Assembly (NCBI GenBank): GCA_025435355.1
Contig: JANJFQ010000007.1
Coordinates: forward strand, 1-35,682
Length of the DNA: 35,682 nt
From: Candidatus Methanophagales archaeon
GTDB taxonomy: Archaea > Halobacteriota > Syntropharchaeia > Alkanophagales > Methanospirareceae
Reading direction: 5' to 3'
In this document: positions 492-34,100 of the stretch, piece by piece
Position numbering within the stretch: the stretch's first letter is position 1
Layout: each line of letters begins with the position of its first letter
Program-made: the position numbers and the translations under genes
Notes under the pieces: model-generated
Databases searched by the model: none
What the model saw: the letters and a program-made list of their open reading frames with translations, nothing else
What the model was told of the DNA's origin: nothing

Positions 492-2606
492 TCATCCCGG
501 AACAGCCTGCAAATCATTCGATATGCTTCGCTCTCGCTCCTGAATGACAATATCACGCACTGCCTGCGATGTTAAATCCGCGATGGGATAATATTTTCCT
601 ACCGAATAGCTTGCTATGTCTCTGCAATATCCAAGCTGCATTTGTACGAATGAGTTATTAATTACTTCGGTATCAATCACAATCACGTGTATACCCTTAG
701 CTCGTGCTTGCTCAGCGAGCGCTAATAATTCCTTCTTAATGTCTTCATTTGACCCAGAGCAAACATTTGCGCGACCGTCAGATATTAACAGTAAGATAGG
801 TATCACTTCTTCATCCTTCTGCTTCTCAGTCATCAGAAGATTTAATCCTCTTTCCAGACCTGCTGATAGCGGTGTTCTTCCGCCGGTTGGCAGTTCCTTC
901 AATCTTTTATATGCCAAATCCACACTTGAACATAGAGGAAGCAACACATCTGCCTGGTTACCTTTAAACGCAACCATTCCAACCTTGTCTCTTTGTTGAT
1001 ACGAATCCAGTAACAAAGAGAGAACGGCACCTTTTGCACTCTCCATCCTTCGATTCGCACCCATTGAACCCGAGGCATCCACAACAAACATCGTTGCTGT
1101 TGACGCTTTCCCTACACGAATCTTCTCTCGTATATCCTGAGCTTTTACAACAACAGCTAAATCAGAATCAACCCGTCTCTCTTTCTGATATGGAGCTGCT
1201 ACACGTATCGTAGCATCAAGCGCAACATCCTTTATTTCTCCTTTCGGGAATCCATAGCGCACATACTTCCCGTTATTGCGAAGAGAGAGTGTGGGAATCC
1301 TTCTTCCGGATATCTTCCTGCGATAAGTTCTATCTTTATTTTGTTTTTGCCTTACCGCTCTTGTATCAATTGCGTCGCCAATACCAAAAACAGATTCTTT
1401 TTGCTGCGGTTCTTTTATATCCTCATTTTCATTTGGAGTTCCTGGATTTTCCGAATCTTGGTGCTCATTTTTATGCTGGTGCTCACCCTTTTCCTTCTTT
1501 TCTCTTTTCTCTTCCCTTTCTTTCCTTTGCTGCTGCTTATTCTCTTCTTTATCCCTTTCATGTTGCTTTTTTGTCTCTGACATCATATCATCGAGTTTTT
1601 CTGTATCCAAACTTGGCGGCTCAAATGGCTTTCTGCGCATTCTGTGCGGAAGTGCTAATTCCATCGCCTCTTTTATGTCCTCAAAAGTGACTTTTTTTCT
1701 GCTATCAAATGCAGCAATCGTTTTTGCCGCTCTATTTATAACGATTTCTGCTCTGTGTGTCTTGACACCGAGTTTAATGCACGTATCTGCCATCAGATTT
1801 AACAAATCATCGCTAATCTCCACCTCATTAACTATCTGTTTCGCTTGCACAATTTTCTCTCTCAACTCTTTTTGTTTTTCCTCGAATTTCTCTTCGAACT
1901 CTCCCGTGCCCCTTTCAAAACTTTCTACAAGCTTCACTATTTCTACCCTTTTATCCGCATCATCTATACTTTCTACACTTGCTTGTAGACCAAATCTATC
2001 CAGGAGTTGAGGTCTGAGCTCGCCTTCCTCAGGGTTCATTGTTCCAACCAGGATGAATTTAGAGGGATGAGAAACCGAAACACCTTCTCTCTCGACAACG
2101 TTTATTGACATCGCAGCCGAATCCAAAATGACATCGGCAACGTGGTCATCTAAAAGATTTACCTCGTCAATATAGAGAATGCCTCTATTTGCAGCAGCTA
2201 ATATCCCTGGCTCCAGCGCCTTTATTCCTTCTTTTATTGCCTTTTCAACGTCTATTGAACCCACGACCCTGTCCTCGGTCGCACCGAGCGGAAGGTCTAT
2301 GACCCACGTCCTTCGCCTTATAGCGTTCGGATTTTCACCATTCGATTTTTTAGCGTAACATAGGTCGCACATCTCACGCTCGTCATAAGGATTGCAATTG
2401 AAGGGACAGCCATTAACCACTTCAATTTCTGGTAGCAGTTCTGCAAGAGCACGAACAGCAGTGGACTTCGCGGTTCCTTTCTCTCCCCTTATAAGCACTC
2501 CGCCTATACGTGGGTTAATGGCATTCAAAATCAACGCCTTCTTCATCTTCTCCTGCCCTACAATTGCCGTAAACGGTAATAGCTCCCTTCTAATGTGGTG
2601 TGTCAT
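492..2606 (-). CDS. Mg/Co-chelatase motor subunit, ChlI (AAA+) - ChlD (VWA) fusion
   Basis: 704 aa; Walker [47 protein letters not shown], acidic/Gln-rich linker, [23 protein letters not shown]. Confidence 0.93.
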
Positions 2607-3803: not shown

Positions 3804-6800
3804 TCACCTTTTTAAAGAATCAACTTCTTTCCACTCCTTTTGTATGTCTTTCACCTTTGCCTCCAATACCTTGACATCCTCCATCGTCATCACATCTATC
3901 GCCCCTCCTTGAAAATCTCCTTTTACCTCGCCCATCTTCTCTTCTATCCATCCTTCCATCTCAAGGTATGCACTCTTCAAACCTTCAATCACCTCTTCGT
4001 CTGCGTCCCATAGCCCACGCTCATAAGCTTCTAACAACCTCCTTCCAATCTCCTCAAGCGCCCATGGATTATTCTCCTCAAAGAACTCCCTCATTTCTTT
4101 ATCTAAAACGAACGTCCTTGCAATGTCATCGAATATCCAGTCATCTACCTCCTGCGTTGTCGCTTCCCAACCGTAAACTCTTCCTATTCGTTTTGATATG
4201 TCCCCTGCACCTTTGTATCCATGACGCTTCATCCCTTCTATCCACTTTGGATTCAGCAACTTTGTTCGAACGACCCTTCTCATCTCGTCTGCAAGGCTTC
4301 TTACTTCTATCTTATCCTGGTCTCTCGTATCACCGTAATATGCTGAAACGTCATGTCCCGAGATCTCTCTTGCAGCAGTTGTGAGTCCCCCGTGCGTTCC
4401 AAAGTAGCAACAACAGCCGCATAGATCGTATTCATCTGTAACTGTCTTATTGAACGTCAAATCAACGGTTTTAAGCTGTGATACAAAACTATCGTGCGCT
4501 TCAACACCAAAATTGTTTTTCCCGTAGGCATATCCGTTCCAATGCACGAAGACATCCGATAAATCCTTCTCCTCTTTCCATGCCGATGCATATACCGCCA
4601 AATTCACACCATTACCATACGTGCCTGGCTTACTTGCGAATATACGTGCAAATTCAGTCCCATTTTCAGTCGTATTTTCACTGCGCATGTTCTCCAATGC
4701 CAGTGCATGCTTTCTCAAATAGTTCTTTTCTATTGGCTCATCAAGCATTGCGACCTCCTGTATCGCCTCGTCTAAAAGTTCGATGCAATTGTAAAAGCAA
4801 TCTCTCGTAATCCCACTCACCCTTACCGTAACGTCTATTCTTGGGCGACCGAACTCTTCCAAAGGAATTACCCTGTATCCTTTTACCCTGCCATCTTTCC
4901 AGACAGGCTCTACACCGATTAGATGCAGTATCTGTGCGAGCTGCTCTCCATCTGTCCACATGACGTCGGATGCCATCCAATACATTGCGATGTTTTCTGG
5001 GATCTTTCCGTTCTCCGCCTCATATTTCCTTACCACACCATCTGCAAGTCGCTTACCAATCTGCCATGCAGCCTTTGTTGGGATTTTGAAAGGGTCGAGG
5101 GAATAAAAGTTCCTGCCAGTTGGAAGTATATCGGGCTTACCCCTTGTTATGAGCCCGGAAGGTCCTGGTTCGACGTATCCTGCATCAAATCCGTGGAACA
5201 AACCACCCATCTCATCCGATGCGTCTATCCTTGAAGAAATATCCATTACCTTTTCCCTCAGCAGAGAAAGCTTATTTTCATTTCTTTTCTTCAATCTATC
5301 GCCTAATATCCTATTCGCTACTTCTAAAGGCTCTTCTTCAGATAAGAAAGCAGAAATAAAATCCTTTGCAATGCCATCTACCTCGGCTAAAAACTCGCTT
5401 TCTGCCTCTGAAGGCTGAATATCGAGTCCCATAAGCACAAAAATCAATTTCCTCAGCTCGGAATCGTGTCTCAGTATCGAATTGATGAACTCAACCTTTT
5501 TATCACCTTCCGGAACTTCTCCAAATATGTGCATTCCATCAGGAATCTGCGTGTTGTATATGCGAGTGATAGCCTCATGTGCAATTTCTATTATTTTCTC
5601 AAAGGAATACCCATTCTCTAACCTTTTATCAAGTCTTATCTCCTCTGATAGTTTCGTTTTCCTTATCAAATCAATAATAATGTGCTCCAGGGCATGTGCT
5701 CTTGCCTTGTCCGACGTTTTTGTCCTGTTATATTCAGCAATATGGTCTTCAAGCTCCTTTAAATCGCCATACAAACCACTTCCGGTCATAACGGTTTGCA
5801 TGTGGTCTATGAGCGTTGCATAACTTCTTCTCTTTGCGATTGTCCCTTCCGGTGGATTATCAGAGTTATATATGTATAGGTGGGGCAAATTTCCGATAGC
5901 AATGTCGGGGTAGCAGCTTTCTGAAAGTGCAACAGATTTCCCGGGCAAGAATTCCAGGTTTCCATGCGTTCCTACATGGATAATCACATCAGCGCCGAAC
6001 GTGGTTTCCAGGTAATGATAGGTTGCGAGATATTGATGAGGAGGAGGCACTTCCGGGTCGTGAAGTATCTTGCATACCTGTCCATCACATCTTGACCCCG
6101 CACAGCCTCGCTTCGGCTGCACGCACACCACTGCACTTCCATATCGAACGCCGGTTATCACGATTTTACCATTGTAAACCATTGCTGCACCTGGTGGATT
6201 GCCCCAGGCTTCACACGTCCTTTCCTTTACTTTTTGAGCAAGCGTATCAAACCATTTTTCATAATCAGCCTTGCTTATCAGCGCGAGTGCACCGCCCTTA
6301 TCCACGATTTCATCCACGGTTGTCCATCTGAACTCAGAAATTGCTTTACGATCCATAATGGTTTCAACGAGTTCTTTTCCACTCTCCGGAGGTTCGACTG
6401 AATATCCCGCCTCTTTCATCTTTTCCAATATCCTCGCTACACTTTCCAGGGTATCAAGATGTGAACCGCTTCCCACTGTTGCCTCAACGCTTGCACAGGG
6501 ATTGTTGTGGAGGATGAATGCAACTCTTCTCTCGGATTTTGGTTTATCTTTTAGCGCTATCCATTTCTTCACCCTATTCACGATCTTGTTTACCCTTTCT
6601 TCTATCTGCGTATGCCGCTCAAATTCGTTATCTCTTCTTGACGCTCCGATAATTATCGGTTCGATTACGCCCTCTAATTCCGGCATCGCAACACTCCAGC
6701 CAACTTCCATGCTGCTTAATCCTTGACTATCTGCTCTCCATTCTTCTTCTGTGCTGTGGTATGCCATCAGTGGGTGGAACATCGGAACATCGAGTTTCTT

Positions 6801-7550
6801 CACTGCATTTACAGAGTCTTCATTGCTCCCAATATGGAATACCGATTGAAGGTTTATGAGTGCATCTACCCTGCTCATAAAGAATGCTTCAACGACTTCA
6901 CTGCTCGATTTAGCACCTAATTCTTTATCACCCGATCCATAGCAGAAGGCAGGAATTACATCAAACTCCTTTTCCAAGTCACGAATTAAGACATTCACGA
7001 TCTCAAGGTCTCTGTTCGTCCAATATGTACGAAAGAAGAGAATACCAACCTTGTGTTTATGCCGCGACGGTTTATACCATGCGAAATAGTCCTCTATGCT
7101 CTCGAAAGCAGTTTCGGCATCAGGATGATAGAATCCCTGCCACATCGTCTCCTTCGGATTCTCGTATTTATAATCCAGACCTAAAACCTCTTTCCCGATG
7201 TATCTTAGCATATTCTTTATGTTCTCTGCCCCGCCATATACATGGTAGGCATTGACCGTTGCGACGACCTCTAAGGAAACGTTTGAAAGCGACCAGAAGG
7301 ATGAATCATGCCCAAAAGAGATCGTTGGCACATCATTATTCAGTCTCTCAACTATCTCATCCCAATGTCCCTCATTTGATGGATGTAAGAGGATGACGTC
7401 CGCCTGCCCAAAAGATTTTATGCAGTCCTTTCGCTTCTTCTCTTCGTCCACATCATGTGTAGACCATGCGTTTAATTCTACTCCGAGCTCCTTACTTGCC
7501 TCAATTAAAAGAGGCTTATCACTTCCCCACGTTACTGCCGTTACCTTCAT
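3804..7550 (-). CDS. cobN: CobN/BchH-family chelatase large subunit (paralog 1)
   Basis: 1248 aa; HVGTHGNLEFLPGKSVALSESCYPDIAIGNLPHLYIYNSDNPPEGTIAKRRSYATLIDHM, LLNPKWIEGMKRHGYKGAGDI are CobN hallmarks. Confidence 0.93.
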   Translation of the reverse strand: MKVTAVTWGSDKPLLIEASKELGVELNAWSTHDVDEEKKRKDCIKSFGQADVILLHPSNEGHWDEIVERLNNDVPTISFGHDSSFWSLSNVSLEVVATVNAYHVYGGAENIKNMLRYIGKEVLGLDYKYENPKETMWQGFYHPDAETAFESIEDYFAWYKPSRHKHKVGILFFRTYWTNRDLEIVNVLIRDLEKEFDVIPAFCYGSGDKELGAKSSSEVVEAFFMSRVDALINLQSVFHIGSNEDSVNAVKKLDVPMFHPLMAYHSTEEEWRADSQGLSSMEVGWSVAMPELEGVIEPIIIGASRRDNEFERHTQIEERVNKIVNRVKKWIALKDKPKSERRVAFILHNNPCASVEATVGSGSHLDTLESVARILEKMKEAGYSVEPPESGKELVETIMDRKAISEFRWTTVDEIVDKGGALALISKADYEKWFDTLAQKVKERTCEAWGNPPGAAMVYNGKIVITGVRYGSAVVCVQPKRGCAGSRCDGQVCKILHDPEVPPPHQYLATYHYLETTFGADVIIHVGTHGNLEFLPGKSVALSESCYPDIAIGNLPHLYIYNSDNPPEGTIAKRRSYATLIDHMQTVMTGSGLYGDLKELEDHIAEYNRTKTSDKARAHALEHIIIDLIRKTKLSEEIRLDKRLENGYSFEKIIEIAHEAITRIYNTQIPDGMHIFGEVPEGDKKVEFINSILRHDSELRKLIFVLMGLDIQPSEAESEFLAEVDGIAKDFISAFLSEEEPLEVANRILGDRLKKRNENKLSLLREKVMDISSRIDASDEMGGLFHGFDAGYVEPGPSGLITRGKPDILPTGRNFYSLDPFKIPTKAAWQIGKRLADGVVRKYEAENGKIPENIAMYWMASDVMWTDGEQLAQILHLIGVEPVWKDGRVKGYRVIPLEEFGRPRIDVTVRVSGITRDCFYNCIELLDEAIQEVAMLDEPIEKNYLRKHALALENMRSENTTENGTEFARIFASKPGTYGNGVNLAVYASAWKEEKDLSDVFVHWNGYAYGKNNFGVEAHDSFVSQLKTVDLTFNKTVTDEYDLCGCCCYFGTHGGLTTAAREISGHDVSAYYGDTRDQDKIEVRSLADEMRRVVRTKLLNPKWIEGMKRHGYKGAGDISKRIGRVYGWEATTQEVDDWIFDDIARTFVLDKEMREFFEENNPWALEEIGRRLLEAYERGLWDADEEVIEGLKSAYLEMEGWIEEKMGEVKGDFQGGAIDVMTMEDVKVLEAKVKDIQKEWKEVDSLKR

Positions 7551-8567: not shown

Positions 8568-8587
8568 GCGAGAAGAGGAGGAATAAG

Positions 8588-11438: not shown

Positions 11439-12335
11439 CTAACCGCCTCCAATCAAGTGTTCCTCTCTCGTTTTTTGTCTGATGCGCTGTGCTAACCCCG
11501 CCAGTTCTTCCTTTGATAATGGAGTTGGTGAAACTGCTTCTTTATTTTCATAGATTCTTGTTGCTAAATCCCTAAACATATCTGCAATTTTCGAGTTTGA
11601 ATTAAGTCCTATCGTTGTTTTAGCATATAACTCGCCTTCCATTATCGTTTGGTCATTAGGGATAGCTCCTATGACCTTTGAACCCACGCTCTGTGCAAAT
11701 TCCTCCACAAGGGCAAGATCATCAATGGCACCCCTCACATTATAGACAATGCCGCCAAGTGGTGAGCCCTCTCTATTAGCATGGCGATAAATGCCCTTGC
11801 AGATATTGTTAGCAGCGTATATGGCCAAATAGTCTGCGGAAGTAACAATAAAGACATCATCTGCCAGTCCTCTTCTTAAAGGCAGTCCAAAACCTCCACA
11901 CACGATGTCCCCCAGAACATCATATATGATCACGTCGAGGTCGAATCCGTCATAGAGTCCCAATCTCTTCAACAAATCAACAACGACGATGACGCCACGC
12001 CCTGCACAACCAACTGCGGGTTCTGGACCCCCTGCTTCCACGCACAGAATTCCTTTATAGCCCTTATACACGATTTCATCCATGTCCACTTGCTTACCGC
12101 CCACAAGTTCGGTTAATCCGAGTTTTGCCACCCCTTTCTCTCTTAACACGTCCAATACCGTGGGAATATCAACGTCTCCACGCAGATTTCGCGTGCAATC
12201 TGCCTTTGGATCGCATCCGATCACCATCGTATTAAGTCCACGTTCGGCATAAACAGCCGCGAGATTCGATGCTACCGTTGATTTCCCTATGCCTCCTTTA
12301 CCATAGAAAGCTATTTGCCTTATTTCTTTTTCCAT
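11439..12335 (-). CDS. NifH-like reductase (NflH/CfbC/BchL superfamily), copy 1
   Basis: P-loop [17 protein letters not shown]; cluster Cys in PEPAVGCAGRG and DVLGDIVCGGFGLPLR. Confidence 0.93.
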   Translation of the reverse strand: MEKEIRQIAFYGKGGIGKSTVASNLAAVYAERGLNTMVIGCDPKADCTRNLRGDVDIPTVLDVLREKGVAKLGLTELVGGKQVDMDEIVYKGYKGILCVEAGGPEPAVGCAGRGVIVVVDLLKRLGLYDGFDLDVIIYDVLGDIVCGGFGLPLRRGLADDVFIVTSADYLAIYAANNICKGIYRHANREGSPLGGIVYNVRGAIDDLALVEEFAQSVGSKVIGAIPNDQTIMEGELYAKTTIGLNSNSKIADMFRDLATRIYENKEAVSPTPLSKEELAGLAQRIRQKTREEHLIGGG

Positions 12336-13337: not shown

Positions 13338-14624
13338 TTACAACTCAATGTAATTATTTATTACCGAATTTATAATTCTCTCGGTGAGATGTATTGTTCC
13401 TTTGAATCCTGCATAAGGTGCGTCAGAGACCGATACTTCATCCAATACAGGGTAAAAAATCCTGAACAGTGGAACTCCGAGTTCCCACGCCAATTTCTTC
13501 TCCATCGAAGACGCGAAAATCATCTCCACTCCTTCTGTTTTTATTACTTCGTTCATTTCAAATCTATCTGGCTCTATGAGCAGTGTTTCAGAATCACTAT
13601 TTTTATCATCGGAAATAAGGTTTCTCGAGGTGACCGCCAGAACCTTTACATTGAGACAGAGTTCATCGCTAAGGAACTTAGCAAGCTCAAACGCACGAGC
13701 ACTATCTCCAACCACTGCAACTGACATATCGTAGATGCCCTGCAAGAAAAGGAATATACGCTCTATACGCTCTTTAATACGGTCTTTCTCTGCGGCAATA
13801 AATTCCTGATTAACCTCCTTGTTCAAACCCCTGGTTACACTTTCCAGGAAGTCTATGCTGTTATTCAATCCGAAGGGGTAAGAAGTTATAACGTAAGGCA
13901 TATCAAATTTTTCCTGCATTATTTTTGCACTTTCGAGTCCATCTCCTCCAAGCACGATATTTAGTGATGCTTTTGGTGCATTTTTTATCTCCTCGAAACT
14001 GGAATTGGTTAAAATAGCGTTAATGGTTATACCCTGGCCGTTTAACATCCTCTCGATCTCCGAAAGATCGGCAGATGACCTGATGTCATCCTGTTTAAAG
14101 CCAATCAGGTTTACTTTGTCATTTTCTTTTTCGCCGGGAATCATATATCGGGTAAGTTCTGCCAGCGTCTCCTCATAGCCAACCCACGCTGGACCTTCGT
14201 AGCCACCGGTGCTTAAAGAAAAGATTTCAGCAGGGACTTCCTCTTTCATTGCGTGAATAACTCCTTCTACATCGTCACCCATGATTGCAGGTGCACTGCA
14301 ATTAAGATTAGCAATTAACGACGGCTTGAAATTTTTATATGATAGTCTTATCGAAGCAGCCAGTCTTCCTTCTGCACCATATACCATATCCTGAGCTCGG
14401 AAGCCACTGCTTACTATTCTAATATCGTTTTGATTTGAGCCAAGTGCTCTGAGGAGTAATACGCCGCAATGGCAGCCAGGTCGAGCATGAACGATAGTTA
14501 TAGAATCTTTAACACCACTAAGTGCTCTTACCGCACCCACCAGTTTACAGTCCTGTGTAGGGTCATAAACCAAACCTTCTCTTCCCTTTGTTTCTTTTCT
14601 TTTTATTTCACTCATATTTACCAC
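13338..14624 (-). CDS. Nitrogenase-like NifD/K-family subunit (module 1, small subunit)
   Basis: 428 aa; DPTQDCKLVGAVRALSGVKDSITIVHARPGCHCG, NLNCSAPAIMGDDVEGV, C-terminal DAPYAGFKGTIHLTERIIN; paralogous to 17060..18226. Confidence 0.88.
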   Translation of the reverse strand: MVNMSEIKRKETKGREGLVYDPTQDCKLVGAVRALSGVKDSITIVHARPGCHCGVLLLRALGSNQNDIRIVSSGFRAQDMVYGAEGRLAASIRLSYKNFKPSLIANLNCSAPAIMGDDVEGVIHAMKEEVPAEIFSLSTGGYEGPAWVGYEETLAELTRYMIPGEKENDKVNLIGFKQDDIRSSADLSEIERMLNGQGITINAILTNSSFEEIKNAPKASLNIVLGGDGLESAKIMQEKFDMPYVITSYPFGLNNSIDFLESVTRGLNKEVNQEFIAAEKDRIKERIERIFLFLQGIYDMSVAVVGDSARAFELAKFLSDELCLNVKVLAVTSRNLISDDKNSDSETLLIEPDRFEMNEVIKTEGVEMIFASSMEKKLAWELGVPLFRIFYPVLDEVSVSDAPYAGFKGTIHLTERIINSVINNYIEL

Positions 14625-14642
14625 CTAACTCCTCTTTTACAC

Positions 14643-16199
14643 CTATATGGTGTACATACTGTCGTACCTATCTTTATCACCCACTGCACCCTGTCTAAGC
14701 GTGCCAAACATGTCCGCCAATGCTGCCCATTCTGGAATCAGATTGGTTCTATATGGATCATATTCCAGCATGCTCAGAAGCGGGTTCCTCTTTCGAGGTT
14801 TTTTAAGTGCCTCTTTTAATTGCATGGCGAGTTCGATAGGAGCTTCAAAGCCGATTCGTTGATGACGGAGCATGAAATTCATGGGATTAAATGTCCTTAT
14901 GCCTTCCTTATTATATTTATGAGCAGTTGCACCCATGGAAATAACCAGATCAGTTCCAGTTTCTTTGATAGCTTTTAGCTCCTCTTCGATGGTTGGATTT
15001 ACAACAACTTCCGGGTCTGAGCCATACTTTCTTGCCAACTCGACATTTATATCCAGCATTTCATTTATCGCCTCTGAGGTCAGACGGCTCTCTAAAGCCT
15101 GTGTCTTATAGATAATAACACTTGCTTTTATTCCCACATCTCGTAACAATGTCATTCCGATACCGTGAATGCCGCCCATAATAGCAACTTCTTTATCCTC
15201 GAGACCTTTCTTAACTTTAGAAAGCCGTTCAGTTGCATCCTTTTTCCTTCTTTCTATTACTTCCTCTGCCTCCGCTTCCTTGCCAAATCGTTGTGCGATT
15301 TCCATAAAGACCCTCGCACTTCCTTCGAATCCGTATGGGCTGAATAACTCTGGATTCCTTGTTTCTTTATATCTATTCCATGCCAGGATCTCGTAGTGGT
15401 CAACACCAAATCGTTCCTTCATCAATCTTGCCCAAGCCATTGGATAATCGGTTATTGTAAGTTCAGCCTTGGGCAGATCATACAGGTCTTTTACAGTGGT
15501 ATGGTCAAAACAAATCTTGTTTATCTTAATTCCCATTTCGTTTAGCACAGATACCATCTCAGCTACCTTTAACCCTGCACCATGGATAGGGAATGAGACA
15601 ATATTAACAGATTCCTCATTTCGTTCTATCTCTTCTCTTTTTATACCATTGCACAGCACCTGATCTGTAATAGCAAAAAGAGCATCTTGATACCCAACTG
15701 GCTTTGTTTTACCAACAAAATCGCCTGTCGTATAGACAACATCGCAACCAACATCTCCTTTTGCTTTTATCTCTTCTACCACCGCCTTGAAATCGTCCCC
15801 AATTAAATCACTTGGACACGTGGTTATCACCACAATCAGATTTGGGTGATACTTCTCGTAAGTCTCTCTAATTCCCAGGCTTAATTTGTCCTCACCACCA
15901 TAAACGACGTCTACATCGTTCATATCGGTACAGGGGGTCTCGTAGAACGGGAGATACGGTCTAAAAGGATTTATCTTCCTCTGAAACGCGCATCCAATTG
16001 GACCGTGGATCAGGGGCACAGCATCCTCAATAGAGTCGACAACCATCAAAGCCCCTGAAATCTTTCCGGGTATAGCAGTCATCCCATGCAAGGGCAGCGT
16101 GCTGTACGCACTAATTAGCGGCCTCAAAAACCCCTCATTCCTCACATCTCCATTTCCAGATTCACTTCCTATTTCCACCGTTTGTTCTCCATACATCAT
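14643..16199 (-). CDS. Nitrogenase-like NifD/K-family subunit (module 1, large subunit)
   Basis: 518 aa; DAVPLIHGPIGCAFQRKINPFRPYLPFYETPCTDMNDVDVVYGGEDKL, VVITTCPSDLIGDDF; paralogous to 18228..19847. Confidence 0.88.
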   Translation of the reverse strand: MMYGEQTVEIGSESGNGDVRNEGFLRPLISAYSTLPLHGMTAIPGKISGALMVVDSIEDAVPLIHGPIGCAFQRKINPFRPYLPFYETPCTDMNDVDVVYGGEDKLSLGIRETYEKYHPNLIVVITTCPSDLIGDDFKAVVEEIKAKGDVGCDVVYTTGDFVGKTKPVGYQDALFAITDQVLCNGIKREEIERNEESVNIVSFPIHGAGLKVAEMVSVLNEMGIKINKICFDHTTVKDLYDLPKAELTITDYPMAWARLMKERFGVDHYEILAWNRYKETRNPELFSPYGFEGSARVFMEIAQRFGKEAEAEEVIERRKKDATERLSKVKKGLEDKEVAIMGGIHGIGMTLLRDVGIKASVIIYKTQALESRLTSEAINEMLDINVELARKYGSDPEVVVNPTIEEELKAIKETGTDLVISMGATAHKYNKEGIRTFNPMNFMLRHQRIGFEAPIELAMQLKEALKKPRKRNPLLSMLEYDPYRTNLIPEWAALADMFGTLRQGAVGDKDRYDSMYTI

Positions 16200-16203
16200 T
16201 TTT

Positions 16204-17055
16204 TTATATCACCTCAGTTGTTTCTTCCTTTTCTCGCAACAAAATATCAATCTCCTCATTTATTTTGTCGAGTTCGTCGTCTGAAAGAGGCTCAGGCATT
16301 ATTCTATCCTTGTTCAAACAAATAGTGAGAGCCAGGTCTCTGAACATATCGGCGATTTCAGAGTCGGGTGCATACTCGAGCACGGTTTTACGGCGTATTT
16401 CAGCTCTTGGTATGAGCTCGCTCATCGGTATCCTACCCATTACCTTCGCACCCAATCTTGCGGCAAAACTCTCGACTATTGATGGTTCGTCCACAACGCT
16501 TCTGCCATTATAAATCAGCCCGCCAAGGAAAACCGCACCACGGTCTGCGAAACGTTTTATGCCTTTACAGATGTTATTTGCAGCATAGATTGCCATTGGG
16601 TCGCAGGTCGTGACAACATAGACATCATCTGCCAGACCTTTTCGCAGTGGCATTGCAAACCCGCCGCACACCACGTCTCCCAGCACATCGTATATCACAA
16701 CGTCAGGCTCCAGGTCATTGAAAGCACCGAGGCGTGCAAGCATATCTGTTGCGGTTATTACTCCTCGACCAGCACAACCCACACCTGGTTCCGGTCCACC
16801 GGACTCGACACAGTACACGCCACCGAACCCTTCAAAAACGATCTCTTCTAATTTCATTTCGTCTGGCCCCTTCGCACGGAAAACATCGAGCACGGTGGGT
16901 ATCCTTCTACCGATTAAATTTCGACTCATATCTGACTTCGGGTCGCAGCCCATTACCATAACAGTCTTACCATCCTCTGCCAGAGCCGCAGCTATGTTTG
17001 AAACAACCGTGGATTTGCCAATCCCTCCTTTCCCATATATGCAGAATTTTCTCAT
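16204..17055 (-). CDS. NifH-like reductase, copy 3
   Basis: 283 aa; [48 protein letters not shown]. Confidence 0.93.
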
Positions 17056-17059
17056 TTTA

Positions 17060-18226
17060 TTATCCCTCTTCTGTTTTAATAGTTAGACCCCCAAACTTAT
17101 CACCAAAACCCATAACTGCGTTGAGTATCGTCTCGGTCAAGCAAACCGCACCCCTGAAACCTGCATAAGGCGCATCATCATACACGCACACGTGATCAAA
17201 CACCGGGTAAGTAAACCTAACGAGTGGTATTCTCAACTCCGAAGTAATATTTCGCTCAAAACTGCTTCCAAAGAGAATTGTTGTGTTAGAATTCCTGACG
17301 TTCTGCTCGAAGATGAAGTAATCATCCTCATTGCCGGCGAGCACTTCGATGTCGAAACCCAGTTCGCTATCCAGAAAGCGAGCCATGTGTTCTGCATGAG
17401 AATCACCAATGACTGAAACTGGCGTTCCGTAGAGTTCGTGCAAATAAAGATATATTCTTTTGAAAGGTTCTAAATCAGGCTTTTTTTCGTTCACACCTGC
17501 GTGCAAATGCTCACAGATTGCATTGATAAAATCCGCGGTGCCTTCAAGCCCATATGGATAATCCACTTCGAGGTATGGCACTCCAAACTCCTTTTTCATG
17601 TGCTCCGCAAGCTCGGTTCCCTGTCCCATTACCACATTTAGCTCTGCCGCAGGAGCATTAACGAACTCATCCAAACTGCACTTTGATATAACACAGTTCA
17701 CTTTTATTCCTGCGTTGTTCAGCAATCTTGTTAACTCCTTTACGTCGGCATCAACCTTAAATTCATCAGGACAAAAGCCTATCAGATTAACAGAATTTTT
17801 TATCACGGTGCGTTCTTTCATCAATTGTGCTAAGCGAACCAACGCCTCCTCATATCCCTTTCTCATGGTGCCCTTAAATCCCGCGGCATCCACACAGACA
17901 ACTTCCTTATTCAATGTAACTGAATCTATCACACCCTCAACGTCATCTCCGATTATTGCAGGAGCATCGCCCGTGATAACCACAAACAGCGGAGTGTTAT
18001 ACAGCCGATTCGCACGCACCAGTGCCTCTCGCAGTGCCTCTTCTCCACCAAAGACGATCTCACGTTCGTGCATCACGGTGCATGCCTGCCTGATATCAGG
18101 CTGATTCGAGGTGCTTTTGAACATCGCAGCACCCCAATTACACCCGACCGGAACGTGGGTAAGCACTACTGCATCCTGTATTCCTGAACATGCGCGAAAT
18201 GCGCCAAAGAATTTACCGCCGTCCAT
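17060..18226 (-). CDS. Nitrogenase-like NifD/K-family subunit (module 2, small subunit)
   Basis: 388 aa; [62 protein letters not shown]. Confidence 0.88.
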
Positions 18227-18227
18227 T

Positions 18228-19847
18228 TTATCCTTCGCCCGTTTCCCTTAATTCTTTTTTACTCTTCATACCCCACATTGTAAACCACATTTCCCGGGAC
18301 GCCATGCACATCGGATCTGCAAGAAGCGGGTAATAGGTGGTGTCGTAATCAAACCGGGACATAATGGGTTTTCGCTTCGTCTGTCCCCGGTGCAGCACGC
18401 TTGCAAGGTATTCACCAAATTCAACGATTCCACTAAAGCCAGTTCTGAAGAGAAGATACCTGGTGGTTGAGATATCGATCATGCCAATTTCACCTCCTTT
18501 CTCGTACAACGGCGGCGTGATGCGGTCGCTCAGCACATGGTCAACTTTCTTTGCGATCTCTGACATCTCATCGAGAGTAGGGTTCATTACAACCTCAAAT
18601 CCCAGGTCCCAGTTCAAAAACGCCTCTTCCATGTTTTTCATCATGATTTCTATCGTCACGTCAGATATGTTAAGACCTTTTAGCAGTTGTGTATCAACGC
18701 AGAGGTATTTTATAGGAAGTTTAAGGTCTTGAGCATACATGCTTACGAGATAAGGTGTGAAGAAGAATCCCTGTGTCGAAACTGCGAAATCATCCCTGGC
18801 AAACATCCGCTGGTATCGCCCAAGTTCTCCCAGAGCTTGCTTCTTCTCCTTTTTGACAGCAGCATCTGCCTCGCCATCTAAACCCAGTTTCGATGCCACA
18901 TCGTGGTAGAATTTCTCAACGCCATCGAAACCAAAGTAAAAGAACCATTTTCGAAGATAATCGTTCTCAAATTTCTCCTTCATCCGTTCTGCCCAGCGTA
19001 TATTGCGTGTTACGATGTTGAGCTCGGCAGCCGGCGCACGCTTTATCTCCGCAACGGTACAGGTGGGAAGCGTCAGATTCACACTGACGCCCATCTCACC
19101 AAAGATGTGTTTGATCTCTTTAAGCTCGCTTTCAAATCCGTATGTGAATCTGCCAAAGGATTCGATGTTTACAAGATTTTCGACTATATCCTGCTCTTCC
19201 ATCAACTGATCCACAAGCGAGAACATCACCTCTTCGTGCCCGCAGCCACGTAGGTCGTATGCCGGGGATCTCGTAGGGTCCTTCCATGACTCTGCAAAAT
19301 CTCTCATCATCAGATCGAGCGACTCCCTGCTCCTGTGAGCAAAACCCTCAGATGGAACATATAAGACATCACATGGAACTTCGACTTCTGTGATTACTCC
19401 CTGTACGTCATCGCCGACCAGACCTGAGACACACGTTGGAAGGACCGCAATCAATGAGGGATGGAATCTGTGATAAACCTCGTATATCTTCTTTCGCAGC
19501 TTTTCCTCTCCACCATATATCACGTCATTCTCATCCAGATCTGTGTAGGGTAGATTATAGATAGGTGCATACATCTTGCGTGGCGTCAATCGCTGGTGAA
19601 AAGCGCAGCCATTTGGTCCGTGTATGAGCGGGATTGCACCATCAATCTCTGATACTGCATAGACCGAGCCAGAGAGCTTGCAGTTGAGTCCATAGCGGTG
19701 AAACTGCCATGTTGTTCCTTGATAGATGCCGTTGAAGACGCGATCACGGAATACGTTCTGAAGCACACCGTTACTTGCAGTTTCACGTGGTTCTAATGCT
19801 TTACCATATCCTGCTGTCTTAACATCTACCTCAACATCTATTTCCAT
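18228..19847 (-). CDS. Nitrogenase-like NifD/K-family subunit (module 2, large subunit)
   Basis: 539 aa; YGLNCKLSGSVYAVSEIDGAIPLIHGPNGCAFHQR, LPTCVSGLVGDDVQGVI. Confidence 0.88.
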   Translation of the reverse strand: MEIDVEVDVKTAGYGKALEPRETASNGVLQNVFRDRVFNGIYQGTTWQFHRYGLNCKLSGSVYAVSEIDGAIPLIHGPNGCAFHQRLTPRKMYAPIYNLPYTDLDENDVIYGGEEKLRKKIYEVYHRFHPSLIAVLPTCVSGLVGDDVQGVITEVEVPCDVLYVPSEGFAHRSRESLDLMMRDFAESWKDPTRSPAYDLRGCGHEEVMFSLVDQLMEEQDIVENLVNIESFGRFTYGFESELKEIKHIFGEMGVSVNLTLPTCTVAEIKRAPAAELNIVTRNIRWAERMKEKFENDYLRKWFFYFGFDGVEKFYHDVASKLGLDGEADAAVKKEKKQALGELGRYQRMFARDDFAVSTQGFFFTPYLVSMYAQDLKLPIKYLCVDTQLLKGLNISDVTIEIMMKNMEEAFLNWDLGFEVVMNPTLDEMSEIAKKVDHVLSDRITPPLYEKGGEIGMIDISTTRYLLFRTGFSGIVEFGEYLASVLHRGQTKRKPIMSRFDYDTTYYPLLADPMCMASREMWFTMWGMKSKKELRETGEG

Positions 19848-19854: not shown

Positions 19855-20274
19855 TTATCCCTCCTCCTTCTTTTGCCGAACTGTCGAATATATCTCCTCT
19901 ATCTTTACCAGAACCGCAGATTTTACCTTCAGGTCTGCGTGCCCACGCCATCTATTTTTCATGTCTTCCACCATTTTCTCCGCACGTTCAAACATCTCAC
20001 CATTTGTGAACACCTTTGCATGCCCTTTGAGCTGATACCCACGCGGCATTCCTTTTCCTAACACTTCGACTGCAATTCCAACCTGCGGGTTCGCGAGCAG
20101 GTTTTTTTTTGTCTTGTCGAAGAGAACATCTACAATCAGTAACTCGCTGTCACTTATTGCACGTATACCACCCACTGGAACCACATTTGGTTTACCATCC
20201 TTAGACGAGGTTGCCAGATGAACCAGGTTCTCGTTTATTATAGCCTGCATTTCCTCACTCATCACCATTTCCAT
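19855..20274 (-). CDS. Pyridoxamine-5'-phosphate-oxidase-like (split-barrel, FMN/heme-binding type) protein
   Basis: 139 aa; LVHLATSSKDGKPNVVPVGGIRAISDSELLIVDVLFDKTKKNLLANPQVGIAV. Confidence 0.82.
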   Translation of the reverse strand: MEMVMSEEMQAIINENLVHLATSSKDGKPNVVPVGGIRAISDSELLIVDVLFDKTKKNLLANPQVGIAVEVLGKGMPRGYQLKGHAKVFTNGEMFERAEKMVEDMKNRWRGHADLKVKSAVLVKIEEIYSTVRQKKEEG

Positions 20275-20323: not shown

Positions 20324-21160
20324 TCATTCCTTCCTCCACGATATCATAGCAGTCCTCAGTTTATGCCTCAACCAGAGCGAACCATTCTCTTTTACCAGAT
20401 TCCCGGATAGGTACAATCGAAGTCTTTCTTCATCAGCTCCGGATACGTTCATCCAGGTCTTATAATGCTGAACCGCAGCTTCTAACTCAGGAAATTGCAT
20501 GTTATGGTTGGCGTCAATTATCTCAACGTTTGCATAAATGCCGAGCTGGTAAAGGATGTTGTAGAGATAAATGTAGTCAGGGCGTAGTCCCGGCTTTTCT
20601 CGATTAAACAAAGACCAGAGCGAGCTACCTTCTTTTTCGTTTCGGCGTCCTGCAACGATAAAGATGTAAACGCTGCGCTTAACAGCTTCGTTTATCTTTA
20701 CAAGTGCGTTTTTGATGTCCTTCATAACAAGTGAATGTGAAGCAATAACAACGTCATGTCCTTTGGCTTCTATGTCGTTTCCTATTTCTACGTCTTCCCA
20801 CTTCTTGGGTATGTAAGTTATGTTTTCCAGATTCTCCTTCGCTACATTCTCCTTCAAGCGAGCAAGCATGCCATTGGATGGTTCTACAACAGTCACGCCC
20901 TTCACATTCTTTGCAAGTGGTATCGCGGTAGTACCAGGACCTGCACCGATGTCAAGAACCCTGTAATCTGGTTCTATTTTTAGTCTTGACATAATCATTC
21001 CTGCACGGTCGCTCTGCTGCACCAGCTCCTCAAACCAGTCAACACGCTCATCCCAGAACTCAGGCATTCCTGCTCGTTGTCCCCAACGCGAGCCCTCTAT
21101 CGCATTATTCCACATTTCCGTCCAATCAAAATCTTCTATTGTTTTCATTTTCATCCCCAT
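20324..21160 (-). CDS. Class I SAM-dependent methyltransferase
   Basis: 278 aa; motif I DYRVLDIGAGPGTTAIPLAKNVKGVTVVEPSNGMLARLKEN. Overlaps the upstream ATPase gene; start may be at an internal Met. Confidence 0.88.
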   Translation of the reverse strand: MGMKMKTIEDFDWTEMWNNAIEGSRWGQRAGMPEFWDERVDWFEELVQQSDRAGMIMSRLKIEPDYRVLDIGAGPGTTAIPLAKNVKGVTVVEPSNGMLARLKENVAKENLENITYIPKKWEDVEIGNDIEAKGHDVVIASHSLVMKDIKNALVKINEAVKRSVYIFIVAGRRNEKEGSSLWSLFNREKPGLRPDYIYLYNILYQLGIYANVEIIDANHNMQFPELEAAVQHYKTWMNVSGADEERLRLYLSGNLVKENGSLWLRHKLRTAMISWRKE

Positions 21161-21932
21161 TTGGTTCCATAGAACGTATAGGCACGATATATGGTCTTCC
21201 TGACTCGTTCTTCACGACAGCCACAACGCCATAAACCTGTTTTAGGTTCTCAGGGTTTAATACCGAAGAAGGATTGCCAGCAGCAAAAATACTTCCCCCG
21301 TTCAGCATGACCATTTTGTCTGAGTACCTGGAACCGAGGTTTAGGTCATGGATGGCCATAATCGCGGAAATCTCCTTCGCTCTCACCAGATTTTTTATTG
21401 CACCCATCACGTCAAGCTGATGCCGTATGTCGAGATTTGAGGTAGGTTCGTCAAGCAAAAGAACGTCAGGCTCCTGCGCAAGTGCCCTCGCTATAAATAC
21501 TTTCTGTTGTTGTCCACCACTGATCTCGTTAATGTCGTGCATGGCGAGGTCTTCGATATTCAGTATCTGCAACACATCTAAAACCTTCTCTTCGTCTTTT
21601 TCGCTACTTCGCCAGCCAATGTGCGGGCGTCTACCCATGAGAACGGTATCAAAGACCGTAGCAGGAAAGGCATGACCAGCGGTTTGAGGAATATACCCCA
21701 ATTTTTTCGCCAGTTCCATTCTGCGCATCTCTTTTATCTCTCTTTCATCCAGCAGTATGCTTCCTTTCTGCGGTGCTAAAATCCTGTTTATACATCGAAT
21801 CAGCGTGGATTTTCCTGCTCCATTTGGACCCACGATACCGAGCATCTCCGATTGAGCAAGCTCCAGACATACACCCTTAAGTATGGGCACACTTGTGTAG
21901 CCAAATTCCACTTCTTTTATTTTTAGTTTCAT
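21126..21932 (-). CDS. ABC importer ATP-binding protein, FecE/BtuD type
   Basis: 268 aa; GPNGAGKSTLIRCINRIL, EISGGQQQKVFIARALAQEPDVLLLDEPTSNLDIRHQLDVM. Confidence 0.93.
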   Translation of the reverse strand: MKLKIKEVEFGYTSVPILKGVCLELAQSEMLGIVGPNGAGKSTLIRCINRILAPQKGSILLDEREIKEMRRMELAKKLGYIPQTAGHAFPATVFDTVLMGRRPHIGWRSSEKDEEKVLDVLQILNIEDLAMHDINEISGGQQQKVFIARALAQEPDVLLLDEPTSNLDIRHQLDVMGAIKNLVRAKEISAIMAIHDLNLGSRYSDKMVMLNGGSIFAAGNPSSVLNPENLKQVYGVVAVVKNESGRPYIVPIRSMEPNGDENENNRRF

Positions 21933-21959
21933 TTCTTTTCACCTCCTTCTTATTTTTCC

Positions 21960-23045
21960 TTACCAATACTCCCTCTTTCTTCTCATTATCAGGTAAAGGA
22001 ACAAAGGACCGCCCACGCAAGATGTTATGATTCCCACAGGAAGGATCACGGGCGCTATGATTCTTCTCGCAATGGTATCAGCACCGAGCAAAAAAGCAGC
22101 TCCGAAAAGACCAGATGCTGGAATTACAAATCTGTTATCCCCACCGATACATATACGAGTTATATGCGGAGCAACCAGCCCAATGAATCCAATCAGTCCG
22201 GTGAAGCACACAATGACTGCTGTAAGGAGGGATGCGATTATCATTACAACTATTCTATCACGCTCGACATTAACGCCAAGACCTTTTGCAGTTTCGTCTC
22301 CTGCACCCATTACATTGAGGTCCCATGATTTCCATATAAGCAGTGGAATGCAAACTCCAATCGTGAGAGATACCGCGGATAAATCGCTCCATGTAACTCT
22401 TCCAAGGTCCCCCATCATCCAGACTACCAGGTCCTTTAGCGCCTCAGCCTCAGAAAAGTAGTGAAGCAATGATGTGACCGCAGCAAAGATATACCCCATT
22501 GCAATACCTGCAAGTATCATCATTTCGGGCGTAGCCTTTTTAAATCGTGCCAATGCAAAGATAACACCTGCTGGTATCAGAGAGAAGAGGAATGCATTTC
22601 CTATCAAAAGAAACTTTCCACCAAAGAAGCCAACGCCAATGATAAAAGCAAGACCAGCACCTAATTGAGCACCGGCAGCAATTCCGATAGTAGTGGGACT
22701 TGCAAGAGGATTTCTCAAAATACCCTGCATCGCTGTTCCTGCAATTGCGAGTCCTATCCCAGCTAAAACGCCCATTACGATGCGAGGTAATCTCAACTTC
22801 CATACGATAATCCCTTCTGTTGTGTTACTGACATCTTGAAATAACCCGTGAAAGATTATGGAATACACCTCTGAGACTGTAATTGGATAAGAACCAAGCG
22901 TTGTGGATATGCCTGCGATAATAAATATTACGGTGATACAAGAAAGAATAAAGATAATCTTTCTTCCGATAAACTTTTTATATTGCTCTTTTATCTCTGC
23001 TCTTTTTGTTCCTATTTCAGTTATCGCCTCGCTGCTTGACGTCAT
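21960..23045 (-). CDS. ABC importer permease, FecCD/BtuC type
   Basis: 361 aa; LRLPRIVMGVLAGIGLAIAGTAMQGILRNPLASPTTIGIAAGAQLGA, GLIGFIGLVAPHITRICIGGDNR. Confidence 0.94.
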   Translation of the reverse strand: MTSSSEAITEIGTKRAEIKEQYKKFIGRKIIFILSCITVIFIIAGISTTLGSYPITVSEVYSIIFHGLFQDVSNTTEGIIVWKLRLPRIVMGVLAGIGLAIAGTAMQGILRNPLASPTTIGIAAGAQLGAGLAFIIGVGFFGGKFLLIGNAFLFSLIPAGVIFALARFKKATPEMMILAGIAMGYIFAAVTSLLHYFSEAEALKDLVVWMMGDLGRVTWSDLSAVSLTIGVCIPLLIWKSWDLNVMGAGDETAKGLGVNVERDRIVVMIIASLLTAVIVCFTGLIGFIGLVAPHITRICIGGDNRFVIPASGLFGAAFLLGADTIARRIIAPVILPVGIITSCVGGPLFLYLIMRRKREYW

Positions 23046-24603: not shown

Positions 24604-24624
24604 TCCACATCACCCCCTATTTTT

Positions 24625-24712
24625 GCTCTGCAATAATCCTTCAAACATTTCATGTTTTCACATTGCTCTTTTTTCTCGCTGCTTGTTCCTGTACTTTCTA
24701 CTGTTATCACAT
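24625..24712 (-). repeat. Diverged fecC-relic-like spacer between PBP-C and PBP-D
   Basis: Reverse strand ...gagcaatgtgaaaacatgaaatgtttgaaggattattgcagagcaaaa aligns with gaggaatacggaaaatatgaaaggtttgaaggattactgcggagcaaa in the relic after PBP-B. Confidence 0.5.
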
Positions 24713-24714
24713 TC

Positions 24715-25965: not shown

Positions 25966-25969
25966 TCTA

Positions 25970-26252
25970 CGTCACCTCCTATTTATAACCCCTCTTCTTC
26001 TTTCACCTTCGTCCCATATCGCATCATGCAAGGGGTGCCATATACCCCTCTCTCTCTCATCTTAGCCATTTCTTTCTTACCCCCTATCCCACCTATCTTT
26101 CCCTCCTTCATCTTAACTCTATGTGAATTATTAACAAGTTTCTGTTAAAATTAATAAAAAGATTTTCGGTTTTTGCATTATAAATGAAAATTCATATTAT
26201 ACATTGCTATTTTTCTATATCTTTTCTTAAACCTTTTCCCAGAACCAACCCA
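25970..26252 (-). promoter_or_regulatory. Upstream/leader region of PBP-C, direct repeat of 29086..29362
   Basis: Near-identical stretches, e.g. acctccttcatcttaactctatgtgaattattaacaa and aataaaaagattttcggtttttgcattataaa. Confidence 0.7.
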
Positions 26253-27592: not shown

Positions 27593-27598
27593 TGATTA

Positions 27599-31152: not shown

Positions 31153-34100
31153 TCATAACGATTCTTCTATCTCACCTTCAAGTTCTAAATATGCTCTTCT
31201 CACTTTCTCCATTTCCTCTTCTGTTGCCTTCCAGTATCCTCTCTTTTCGGCTTCAAACAGCTTTTCCAATATTTCTGCGGCTGCGAATTTGTTGTTCTCT
31301 TCCAATCTTCTCCTCATTTTCTCGTCGAAAACAAAACGTTCTGCAATAGAAGACCATATCCAGTTAGGAACGGCATTTGTGGTGGCTGCCAAGCCCAACG
31401 TATTCTCTACACGGTCTGCAATTTGCTGTGCTCCATGATAGTCATGTTCCAGCATTCCGTCTATCCATTTCGGATTCAGCAACCTTGTCCTTGTCCCTCT
31501 TACTATAACGTCTCCAACGTCTTCGGTTTTTATCACCTCTTTTGTGGTATCAGTGACCATCATTGCCGCTTTTTCGCCTTTAACCGTTTCTACCGCCTTT
31601 GATAGCCCACCAAAGAACTCGTAGTAATGGTCGAGGTCAACTATTTCATAGTCATGTGAATCTCTGACTTGCGACACCAACTCTATTTTTGCGAGATTTT
31701 CTCTGAATAACGAATCTCTTTTCTGTGCATGAATATTTTCCACGTATAAATGGCTCATAGACTGGATATAGACTTCTGCAAGGTCTTTTTCCTCTTTCCA
31801 GATGGAGTCCTCGACTAATGGAAGCATTCTTGTGCCATACTCCCCGGCTTTAGGACCGTATATTCTTCCGCATGCAATTTTAGTTCCAGTTTTTTCGTCT
31901 ATCGCACCTTTTTCAATCTCCGTTTTTAGCATTTCCAGGTTTTCAAGCGAGTGTTTCCTGACAAAATTCAGGTCTATTGGTTCATCGAGACTTGCCGTGA
32001 GCGTAAATGCTTGATTCAGCAGTTGAATGAGGTTTGGGAACATGTCACGGAAGAAGCCGCAGATATTGATTAGACAGTCAATTCTTGGTCTTCCAAGTTC
32101 CTCTAAAGGTATGACTTCCAATTCAGGATACCATGAACCCTTTTCTTTAATGAGTTTCACACCTAAATAATGAAGAATCTGTCCTATGGACTCCCCACCT
32201 GTTTTTGTCGTTTCAAATCCCCATAGCACGATACCAACACTTTCAGGATATTTGCCATCCTTTCCTAAGTATCTCTTTATCGTATTCTCTGCTATTTCAG
32301 CTCCTCTTTCTGAGGCTGTCGAAGTTGGTATTCTATTAGGGTCAAATTGATTAATATTTCTCCCGGTAGGAAGAACTTCTGGTGTCCTTACTACATCCCC
32401 ACCAAGACCTGGTTCGATAAACTCCGTATTCAAGCCACGCAAGCAACTTTCCAGCTCATTAGAATTATCCGCATAATTCGCTGCCACTTCTATTCCAAAC
32501 GCTAAAGTCTTATTCAAATCCTTTCTGTGCTTACTATCTGCGTTGCTATTCTTGACTGCACTTTTAACCGATTCCTCAACACAACAATCTACAAGGTCTG
32601 CACATTTATTGTCTATGTTATCCAACTGCGAAGCATATTTGTCTTTGTTCCTCAATGCTAAGTCGTAATCAATACCCAGTGATTCTGCTAATATTCGGTT
32701 TATAGATTTTATGCCCTCTCGGTCATACCTCAGTATAAATTCGGTAAATTTCTTGAGGTCCTCTTTATCATATCGCTGCCCAACTATGTGGAGTCCTTTT
32801 GGTATGATGCTTCTTTTCATCTCATAGAGCTCTTCATGAATCTTCTCGATACTGTCACCCTCAAATTTCAATTCCTTTGCCTTCTCCAAGATTTTCTCGT
32901 TCACTTTCTCGCTTCTCAACCGGTCTTCCAGCATGGCTTCGTGATATTCATCAATCAAATCCTGTAGCTCTACATAGTCCTCATACAGGTCTGAAGTGGT
33001 GTAAGGTGGGGAATTATAGCTTATCATCGTGCCATAAAGTCGCCTCTTTGCTATTGTTGATTCCGACGTGTTCAACACGTGGTAAATGTAAAGATGCGGC
33101 ATATTACCAATCAAGATGTCCGGGAAACAACAGGAGCTCATTCCCACTTCCTTACCCTTCATAAATTCTGCCAGACCGTGAGTTCCAACGTGAAACACTG
33201 CATCTGCGCCCCATACTTCCTGCAACCAGAAATAGAATGCGAGATATTGATGATGAGGCGGTTTTGTTTTGTCGTGTGCGGCTTTAGCTAAGTCAGATTC
33301 ATCAAGCGGAGGTCTTGCTGGTTGAATTCCAACGAATACGTTGCCGAGTTCAATCCCGGGTATCAGGAGTGTGTTATCAACGGTCATTACATTTCCCGGA
33401 GGTTCTCCCCAATCCGCTATAACATCGTTTTGCACCTCCTCAGGTAGTGCGTGAAAAAAATCAAGATAATCCGCCATATCAATAGAATAGCAATTTTTTA
33501 GCGTTTTATCCTCCCAGAACCATGTTCCAGAGTTTACAATTGCCCTCTCCTCAAATAAATCGTATAATTCTTTCTCCGGAAGCTCTACCTTATATCCACT
33601 CTCTTTTAAACGTTCTAACAAACGTTTCACGGATTGAAAAACGTCAAGATAAGCCGCTTTTCCTATATTCTCCTCGCCTGGTGGATAGTTGTAGATTATA
33701 ATAGCAAGCTTCTTTTCGTTATTTTGCATCTCCTTCAATTTCAGCCAATTTCTTAGCCTGCCTGCAATGCGTTCAACGCGGTCGTCAATTGGTGCGATTT
33801 CTTTTGCTTCCATCTCCCCAACCATTATATCCTGCATTCCACAGGAAGGTATGGGCTCAATGCATCCATCGAGTTCTGGCCAGACCACAGCAGCAATAAT
33901 CTCGATTGACGAAAGACCTGTTGGCGATGCGTTCCATTTTTCCACCTCTCGCATGAGCATAGGTGCGGGAGCGAAAATAGGCACGTTCAACTCTTTCAGT
34001 AATTCCGCAGTCAAAGCAGGGTTTCCACCAAGAGGACCGCCGTTTATCCTGAACCACATCAAATTTATTACCGCGTCAACGAGGGGTTTACCATTTCTGA

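Follow-up and report, generated by a model that had tools for sequence, protein, structure and literature searches.

Two nitrogenase-like modules with different interface cysteine sets in a Candidatus Methanophagales genome

Two nitrogenase-like gene sets lie next to each other on contig JANJFQ010000007.1 of a Candidatus Methanophagales archaeon (assembly GCA_025435355.1), and the locus raises the question of whether they encode reductases with different clusters between their subunits, and what such reductases would act on. The window analysed here is the whole stretch of 35,682 nucleotides, an entire contig (G000:C67) of an archaeal metagenome-assembled genome (MAG) of 2.16 Mb that is 82% complete. 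Module 2 comprises an alpha gene (18228), a beta gene (17060) and one NifH-like gene, and module 1 an alpha gene (14643), a beta gene (13338) and two NifH-like genes, the alpha and beta genes being named by their first coordinate. All four chains matched PF00148 far above cut-off and all three partner proteins matched the NifH family, with the P-loop and both cluster cysteines present in a motif check of the NifH-like proteins, which places the modules in the nitrogenase-like superfamily (NflHDK). No published description of these modules was found in the open-access literature searched. We lean towards the reading that the window encodes two separate and complete nitrogenase-like reductases having [4Fe-4S] interface clusters of opposite polarity and, most likely, a metallo-tetrapyrrole as substrate.

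Cysteines at the interface positions of the four chains

The sequence-only reading of this DNA had assigned three P-cluster-type cysteines to 18228, essentially one to 17060, two to 14643 and three to 13338, that is 3+1 for module 2 and 3+2 for module 1. All the cysteine motifs listed there were present in the genes named, and their placement was borne out when the chains were aligned with NifD, NifK, NifE and NifN of Bradyrhizobium (L058), with BchN, BchB, BchY and BchZ of Roseobacter litoralis (L057 and L069) and with CfbD. At positions 1-2-3 of the P-cluster cysteines, 18228 reads C-C-C, 17060 G-C-D, 14643 G-C-C and 13338 C-C-S, the last with a cysteine right before the serine. Independent profile alignments made with hhalign agreed with these positions, some of them staying unaligned with some references and BchY and mostly BchN being too distant to match. 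In these, C56, C81 and C139 of 18228 correspond to C44, C69 and C130 of NifE (Bradyrhizobium numbering) and G4, C29 and D87 of 17060 to G10, C35 and S94 of BchZ; G45, C70 and C128 of 14643 correspond to S26, C51 and C106 of CfbD, and C26 and C51 of 13338 to C70 and C95 of NifK. The cysteine counts of both modules, which become 3+1 and 2+3 when written as alpha plus beta, were found to hold across orthologous pairs, with the qualification that C109, the third cysteine of 13338, pairs with NifK T152, the residue ahead of C153, and S110 occupies the canonical position. Among paralogues, some have the cysteine in the canonical position (LLDACAPAIV) and others have one in each of the two (LSCCAPTII); the doublet may be ancestral, each lineage having retained one cysteine of it, this being a reading of the alignment rather than a formal reconstruction.

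AlphaFold2 models were made of the single chains 13338 and 18228. The model of 13338, with a predicted local distance difference test (pLDDT) score of 87.2, has C26 and C51 at helix starts, and its C109 follows strand 103-108 and precedes helix 110-115; within the single chain all three sit at loop/helix junctions where the cluster site would be expected. Foldseek matched this model to AnfK and BchB, each with a template-modelling (TM) score of 0.84, and also to NifN. The model of 18228 was weaker (pLDDT 74, TM ~0.5).

Orthologues were taken from related loci of eight genomes of the same class and from 20 loci of a species collection, several of these being the same contigs. With the window counted, the combined pattern of module 2 was present in 10/10 adjacent pairs (nine complete and one cut at the 5' end) and that of module 1 in 13/13, the pairs spanning MAGs of the anaerobic methanotrophic ANME-1 group, of Methanothrix type and of Methanogasteraceae. 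The ligand-site cysteines were kept in 9/9, 9/9 and 10/10 orthologues of 18228, in 10/10 of 17060, in 14/14 of 14643 and in 13/13 of 13338. As judged from these sequence comparisons, the cysteine patterns are evolutionarily fixed and not a result of drift or chance. Several other cysteines of 17060 and 13338 vary among orthologues, which sets the invariant ones apart; most other cysteines of 18228 and 14643 are invariant too, so conservation alone singles out no ligands in these two chains, whereas the alignment to solved families does. Most alpha chains and the beta chain of module 2 also have a cysteine before a conserved threonine (PCT or ACT) about 20 residues past position 2, a site at which the window's 18228 has tyrosine and most of its orthologues cysteine.

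Interface clusters and the wider radiation

By homology, each module would form an alpha2-beta2 complex served by its own NifH-like ATPase, which would pass ATP-driven electrons by way of a [4Fe-4S] cluster lying between alpha and beta to an organic substrate. The cluster of module 2 would be held by the three alpha cysteines and the single position-2 cysteine of beta, and that of module 1, in reverse polarity, mainly by C26, C51 and C109 of beta together with C70 of alpha, the fifth cysteine (alpha C128) probably being redundant. The cysteine equivalent to the ligand of the iron-molybdenum cofactor (FeMoco; NifD C275) was absent in 40/40 alpha chains and, of the window genes scanned, none was recognised as NifB-like; thus, a FeMo-type active site, for which the FeMoco/L-cluster cysteine is missing, is unlikely.

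In a tree of 120 rows, built by a quick method with several references on long branches, 40 alpha and 39 beta chains formed two clades (SH-aLRT 100 and 99) that exclude the reference sequences of Nif, Bch and CfbD. These clades branch as mirror images, which supports the pairing of the chains. When set against Nif, Bch and CfbD only (the tree had no Mar, Isr or Nfa rows), the chains appear to make up a new branch of heterotetramers within the known nitrogenase-like enzymes. At least six module types other than the two of the window were found, namely a 1+3 type (G-C-D + C-C-C) in beta-NifH-alpha order (L050, L052, L054 and L055), 2+1 types (A-C-C + T-C-S in L043 and L053; G-C-C + D-C-A in L039), 3+2 or 3+1 types (C-C-C + C-C-Y or S-C-H) and a 2+3 type with a cysteine doublet (L051); the single MAG G036 holds at least six alpha/beta pairs. 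Also among these types is a paralogous pair of the same radiation (L038 4756-7500; G056:C41), which has all six P-cluster-type cysteines (3+3). All alpha chains that span position 2 have a cysteine there, as do the beta chains with the single exception of L048, which is locally disturbed.

Within the module 1 clade, alpha position 1 is glycine or alanine, and never cysteine, in 25/25 rows, and sister modules have lost either the third alpha cysteine (1+3) or the first and third beta cysteines, which suggests that one of the five cysteines is dispensable. The earlier expectation that the two modules have different inter-subunit clusters is upheld as regards ligation; different cluster types are not established, as the sister losses fit a four-ligand [4Fe-4S] cluster with a spare cysteine and reversed chain polarity no less well than a larger cluster, and these same losses would suggest for module 1 a [4Fe-4S] cluster with a redundant cysteine rather than a cluster of another type. 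We consider it unlikely that module 1 holds a larger, P-cluster-like cluster with five cysteines and one non-cysteine ligand, by which the modules would truly differ in cluster type. Such a cluster would agree with the five cysteines fixed in all 13 pairs, with the complete set in the paralogous L038 pair and with MarDK, a nitrogenase-like enzyme able to hold a P-cluster (PMC12552129), but the persistence of the sister modules suggests that fewer than five may suffice, the third beta cysteine is one residue out of register, and at alpha position 1, where a P-cluster has a terminal ligand, the whole clade has glycine or alanine. That the missing cysteines mark decay, with one or both modules degenerating as paralogues, is hardly credible, as cysteines at positions 1 and 3 are indeed lost in many paralogues but the frames are open, identical patterns recur in every orthologue across distant archaea, and the position-2 cysteine is kept in all covering alpha and nearly all beta chains.

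Two observations weigh against the [4Fe-4S] reading with its simple ligand counts. Extra cysteines near the site are conserved as well (C49 of 17060 in 10/10, C90 of 14643 in 14/14 and C53 of 13338 in 12/13) and, as further ligands, could alter the count. Furthermore, with eight module types compared, compensation between alpha and beta cysteine numbers was not significant (r = -0.25), and sums at least as even arose in 37% of random pairings.

The two-module order P1a-P2b-H-P3a-P4b(-H) recurs in L075, L076, L078 and L088, whereas module 2 stands alone in L077, L079 and L080; thus, the modules are separable enzymes. Module 1 was seen without a recognised module 2 in G003, G011 and G022, which are incomplete MAGs, and incompleteness bears on the apparent absence of a module. 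Two loci depart from these layouts. In L040 (G036:C129), a beta chain 84% identical to 17060 adjoins an alpha chain only 59% identical to 18228 and the order is changed (14643-like, alpha, beta), which suggests replacement of the alpha gene or recombination. In L045 (G021:C40), at 5183-5787, the module 2 beta and NifH genes have no alpha gene in front, and no 18228 orthologue was found elsewhere in that MAG.

Gene neighbourhood and candidate substrates

Along the minus strand, a BchH-type chelatase, periplasmic binding proteins, a FecCD/BtuD importer, a methyltransferase and a PNPOx-like protein precede module 2, which is followed by module 1, an ABC-2 exporter, a CobN-type chelatase, a Gate-domain membrane protein and a ChlI/D-type ATPase; a second ABC-2 exporter is encoded on the plus strand (Table 1).

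Table 1. Features of the two modules and their neighbours, in coordinates of the window
Feature	Coordinates	Strand	Evidence
Module 2 alpha, NifD/E-like, 539 aa	18228..19847	-	PF00148 4.2e-50
Module 2 alpha, ligand-position codons	C56 19680-19682, C81 19605-19607, C139 19431-19433	-	C-C-C in alignment; hhalign to NifE
Module 2 beta, NifK/BchB/BchZ-like, 388 aa	17060..18226	-	PF00148 3.3e-68
Module 2 beta, ligand-position codons	G4 18215-18217, C29 18140-18142, D87 17966-17968	-	G-C-D in all orthologues; hhalign to BchZ
Module 2 beta, extra conserved C49	18080-18082	-	Orthologue conservation
Module 2 NifH-like ATPase	16204..17055	-	NCBIfam PRK13230 465 bits (cut-off 350); P-loop and both cluster Cys
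Module 1 alpha, NifD/E-like, 518 aa	14643..16199	-	PF00148 6.2e-61
Module 1 alpha, ligand-position codons	G45 16065-16067, C70 15990-15992, C128 15816-15818	-	G-C-C in all orthologues
Module 1 alpha, extra conserved C90	15930-15932	-	Orthologue conservation
Module 1 beta, NifK/AnfK/BchB-like, 428 aa	13338..14624	-	PF00148 3.1e-77; AlphaFold2 model
Module 1 beta, codons	C26 14547-14549, C51 14472-14474, C53 14466-14468, C109 14298-14300, S110 14295-14297	-	
Module 1 NifH-like ATPase copy 1, internal insertion of ~30 residues	12362..13348	-	Fer4_NifH 1.6e-91
Module 1 NifH-like ATPase copy 2	11439..12335	-	Fer4_NifH 7.4e-95
PNPOx-fold flavoprotein-like protein adjoining module 2	19855..20274	-	PF01243 2.9e-15
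S-adenosylmethionine (SAM) methyltransferase	20324..21160	-	PF13649 5.9e-11; nearest NCBIfam CpaM, UbiG and CbiT, all below cut-off
BtuCD/FecCD-type importer, ATPase and permease	21126..23045	-	Pfam FecCD 4.3e-88, ABC_tran 1.6e-34
CobN-type chelatase large subunit	3804..7550	-	PRK05989 1794.8 bits (cut-off 1468)
BchH-type chelatase large subunit	31153..34917	-	TIGR02025 989 bits (cut-off 829)
ChlI/D-type chelatase ATPase	492..2606	-	TIGR02442 788.8 bits (cut-off 779.45)
Two ABC-2 type exporters, each ATPase and permease	7677-9406; 9623-11406	+; -	Pfam

The two chelatase large subunits and the ChlI/D-type ATPase all score above curated cut-offs and flank the modules on both sides. From this gene context, a metallo-tetrapyrrole, a ring resembling heme or vitamin B12, would be the most likely substrate, as the flanking CobN/BchH/ChlID chelatases and the methyltransferases would handle it and the neighbouring transporters would move it. 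Chelatase genes share a contig with modules also in G011 (C10) and L080, and methyltransferases that adjoin modules in L075 and L088 have similarity to BchU. PNPOx-like homologues adjoin modules in L037, L075, L076 and L088, and homologues of the ABC-2 exporters in L072, L075, L077 and L088. More tentatively, the radiation in ANME-1, Methanothrix-type and related archaea could quite possibly build or remodel a reduced methylated metallo-tetrapyrrole, with the cluster tuned, from six cysteines down to three, by which chain supplies them.

Several facts count against a tetrapyrrole substrate. The BchU similarity reaches 57.9 bits, far short of the curated cut-off of 276.1. Chelatase genes are widespread in the class (42/58 genomes), with several in G006, which has no module, and no chelatase match was found in G056, which carries several modules; the link between chelatases and modules is thus circumstantial. 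In addition, Asp274 of BchB, the proton donor of dark-operative protochlorophyllide oxidoreductase (DPOR), is replaced by tyrosine in 17060 and by glutamate in 13338, as far as the distant alignment tells.

A less probable role than making such a compound would be tetrapyrrole salvage, in which heme- or B12-like rings are imported, their metal is removed or exchanged by the CobN/BchH homologues as by HmuS, and the ring is reduced by the modules for reuse or disposal. Many periplasmic binding proteins and the FecCD importer adjoin the modules, and HmuS, a CobN homologue, takes iron out of heme, the role of archaeal HmuS homologues being called unclear by the authors of that study (PMC12583661). 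However, HmuS de-chelation works without ATP (PMC12583661), whereas a ChlI/D-type ATPase partner is present here, and the methyltransferases and ABC-2 exporters suggest a compound that is made and exported. It is improbable that the modules serve the methyl-coenzyme M reductase of ANME-1 by making a modified F430 or joining F430 synthesis. ANME-1 uses 17(2)-methylthio-F430 (PMC11256747), and the alpha chain of module 1 shares the x-C-C pattern with CfbD, but the methylthio group requires no ring reduction, and true CfbD is a gene apart that nearly all genomes of the class have, whereas the modules are patchy. A role as CfbCD in routine F430 synthesis was rejected because true CfbD is a separate gene; it was found in most genomes of the class, and in this genome as a fragment at a contig end (G000:C164 5-259). 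Equally poor are the prospects that the substrate is not a tetrapyrrole but, for instance, a C-S compound, as in MarHDK or IsrHDK: the subunit plan is the same and asymmetric cysteines are known also in IsrDK (PMC11423573), but no radical-SAM gene of NifB, MarB or IsrB type was recognised among the window genes scanned, and the FeMoco/Mar cysteine ligand is absent in all alpha chains.

Some features of the neighbourhood stand apart from these questions. The two NifH-like genes after module 1 are in tandem, the first with its insertion, and in G056 a 95% relative of copy 2 directly follows the beta gene (L037 1-504), so that copy 1 looks like a lineage-specific duplicate. The periplasmic binding proteins (window 23503-30981; L051 1142-2893) start with a repeated dockerin- or EF-hand-like segment, CDxDxNDELTxxELVNAILPYML, and at a related locus (G022) a cohesin-domain protein is encoded close by; from these, the binding proteins may be tethered on a surface scaffold. 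At 24715-25965 a binding-protein gene is in two short frames, which suggests a broken copy, and at 26479-27280, within the same cluster, a ribbon-helix-helix-like gene overlaps a PIN-like gene, by eye resembling a VapBC-type pair.

Comparison with known nitrogenase-like systems

The characterised nitrogenase relatives cited here have one ligand arrangement each, and the related paralogues described above, often of the same genome, show 3+3, 3+2, 3+1, 2+3, 1+3 and 2+1 cysteine sets, a natural series in which to study how an electron relay shifts from chain to chain and between 8Fe and 4Fe clusters. The locus is also relevant to a question raised in the literature, the use that archaea make of their many CobN/ChlH/HmuS homologues (PMC12583661), and makes it testable.

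The six P-cluster cysteines (3+3) of the Mo, V and Fe nitrogenases are not matched by either module, one of the five in module 1 being out of register, and the FeMoco ligand is missing as said. MarHDK is likewise a heterotetramer with its own NifH-like protein and holds a 3+3 cysteine P-cluster and an [Fe8S9C] cluster (PMC12552129), but neither Mar ligand set is complete in the window's modules. IsrDK has three cysteines on K and one on D (PMC11423573), a reverse polarity that module 1 resembles and its 1+3 sister shares; the comparison is with the published description of IsrDK, which differs in that module 1 has a second alpha cysteine and no radical-SAM IsrB neighbour was recognised. CfbCD, a Ni-sirohydrochlorin a,c-diamide reductase, resembles the modules in its tetrapyrrole chemistry and in the S/N-C-C of CfbD in ten ANME-type sequences, near the G-C-C of module 1 alpha; however, CfbD is a homodimer without a beta chain, and the chains score at most 64.5 bits against the TIGR03282 cut-off of 268.4.

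The sequence-only reading had likened module 2 to DPOR (BchLNB). The likeness stands for the asymmetric 3+1 interface cluster, and DPOR also shares the fold, as seen in the match of 13338 to BchB; however, position 2 of BchB is aspartate, the fourth ligand, where 17060 has C29 and 13338 C51, and the Asp274 proton donor is not kept. Because of the aspartate at position 2, the all-cysteine 3+1 sets of BchYZ and NifEN are the better parallel. Both alpha chains have NifE among their nearest matches and NifN reads S-C-G, giving 3+1, and the O-cluster of NifEN is bound by NifE Cys37, Cys62 and Cys124 with NifN Cys44 interacting (PMC13031127); NifEN differs in its L-cluster ligand site, which is without cysteine in the modules, and no nif cofactor genes were recognised beside them.

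The chlorophyllide a oxidoreductase COR (BchXYZ), for which we assume a 3+1 ligand assignment in line with our alignment, has three alpha cysteines and one beta cysteine at position 2 as module 2 does, with G-C-S in BchZ and G-C-D in 17060. Both lack FeMoco and both have BchH/ChlID-type chelatases in the gene neighbourhood. COR is very distant in sequence, with long branches: BchY was not reliably matched, the BchZ score of 17060 (64.5 bits) is far below the family cut-off of 529, and the modules are archaeal. Taken together, the system belongs to a known kind of enzyme as a new branch, in which the ligand sets are unusually variable.

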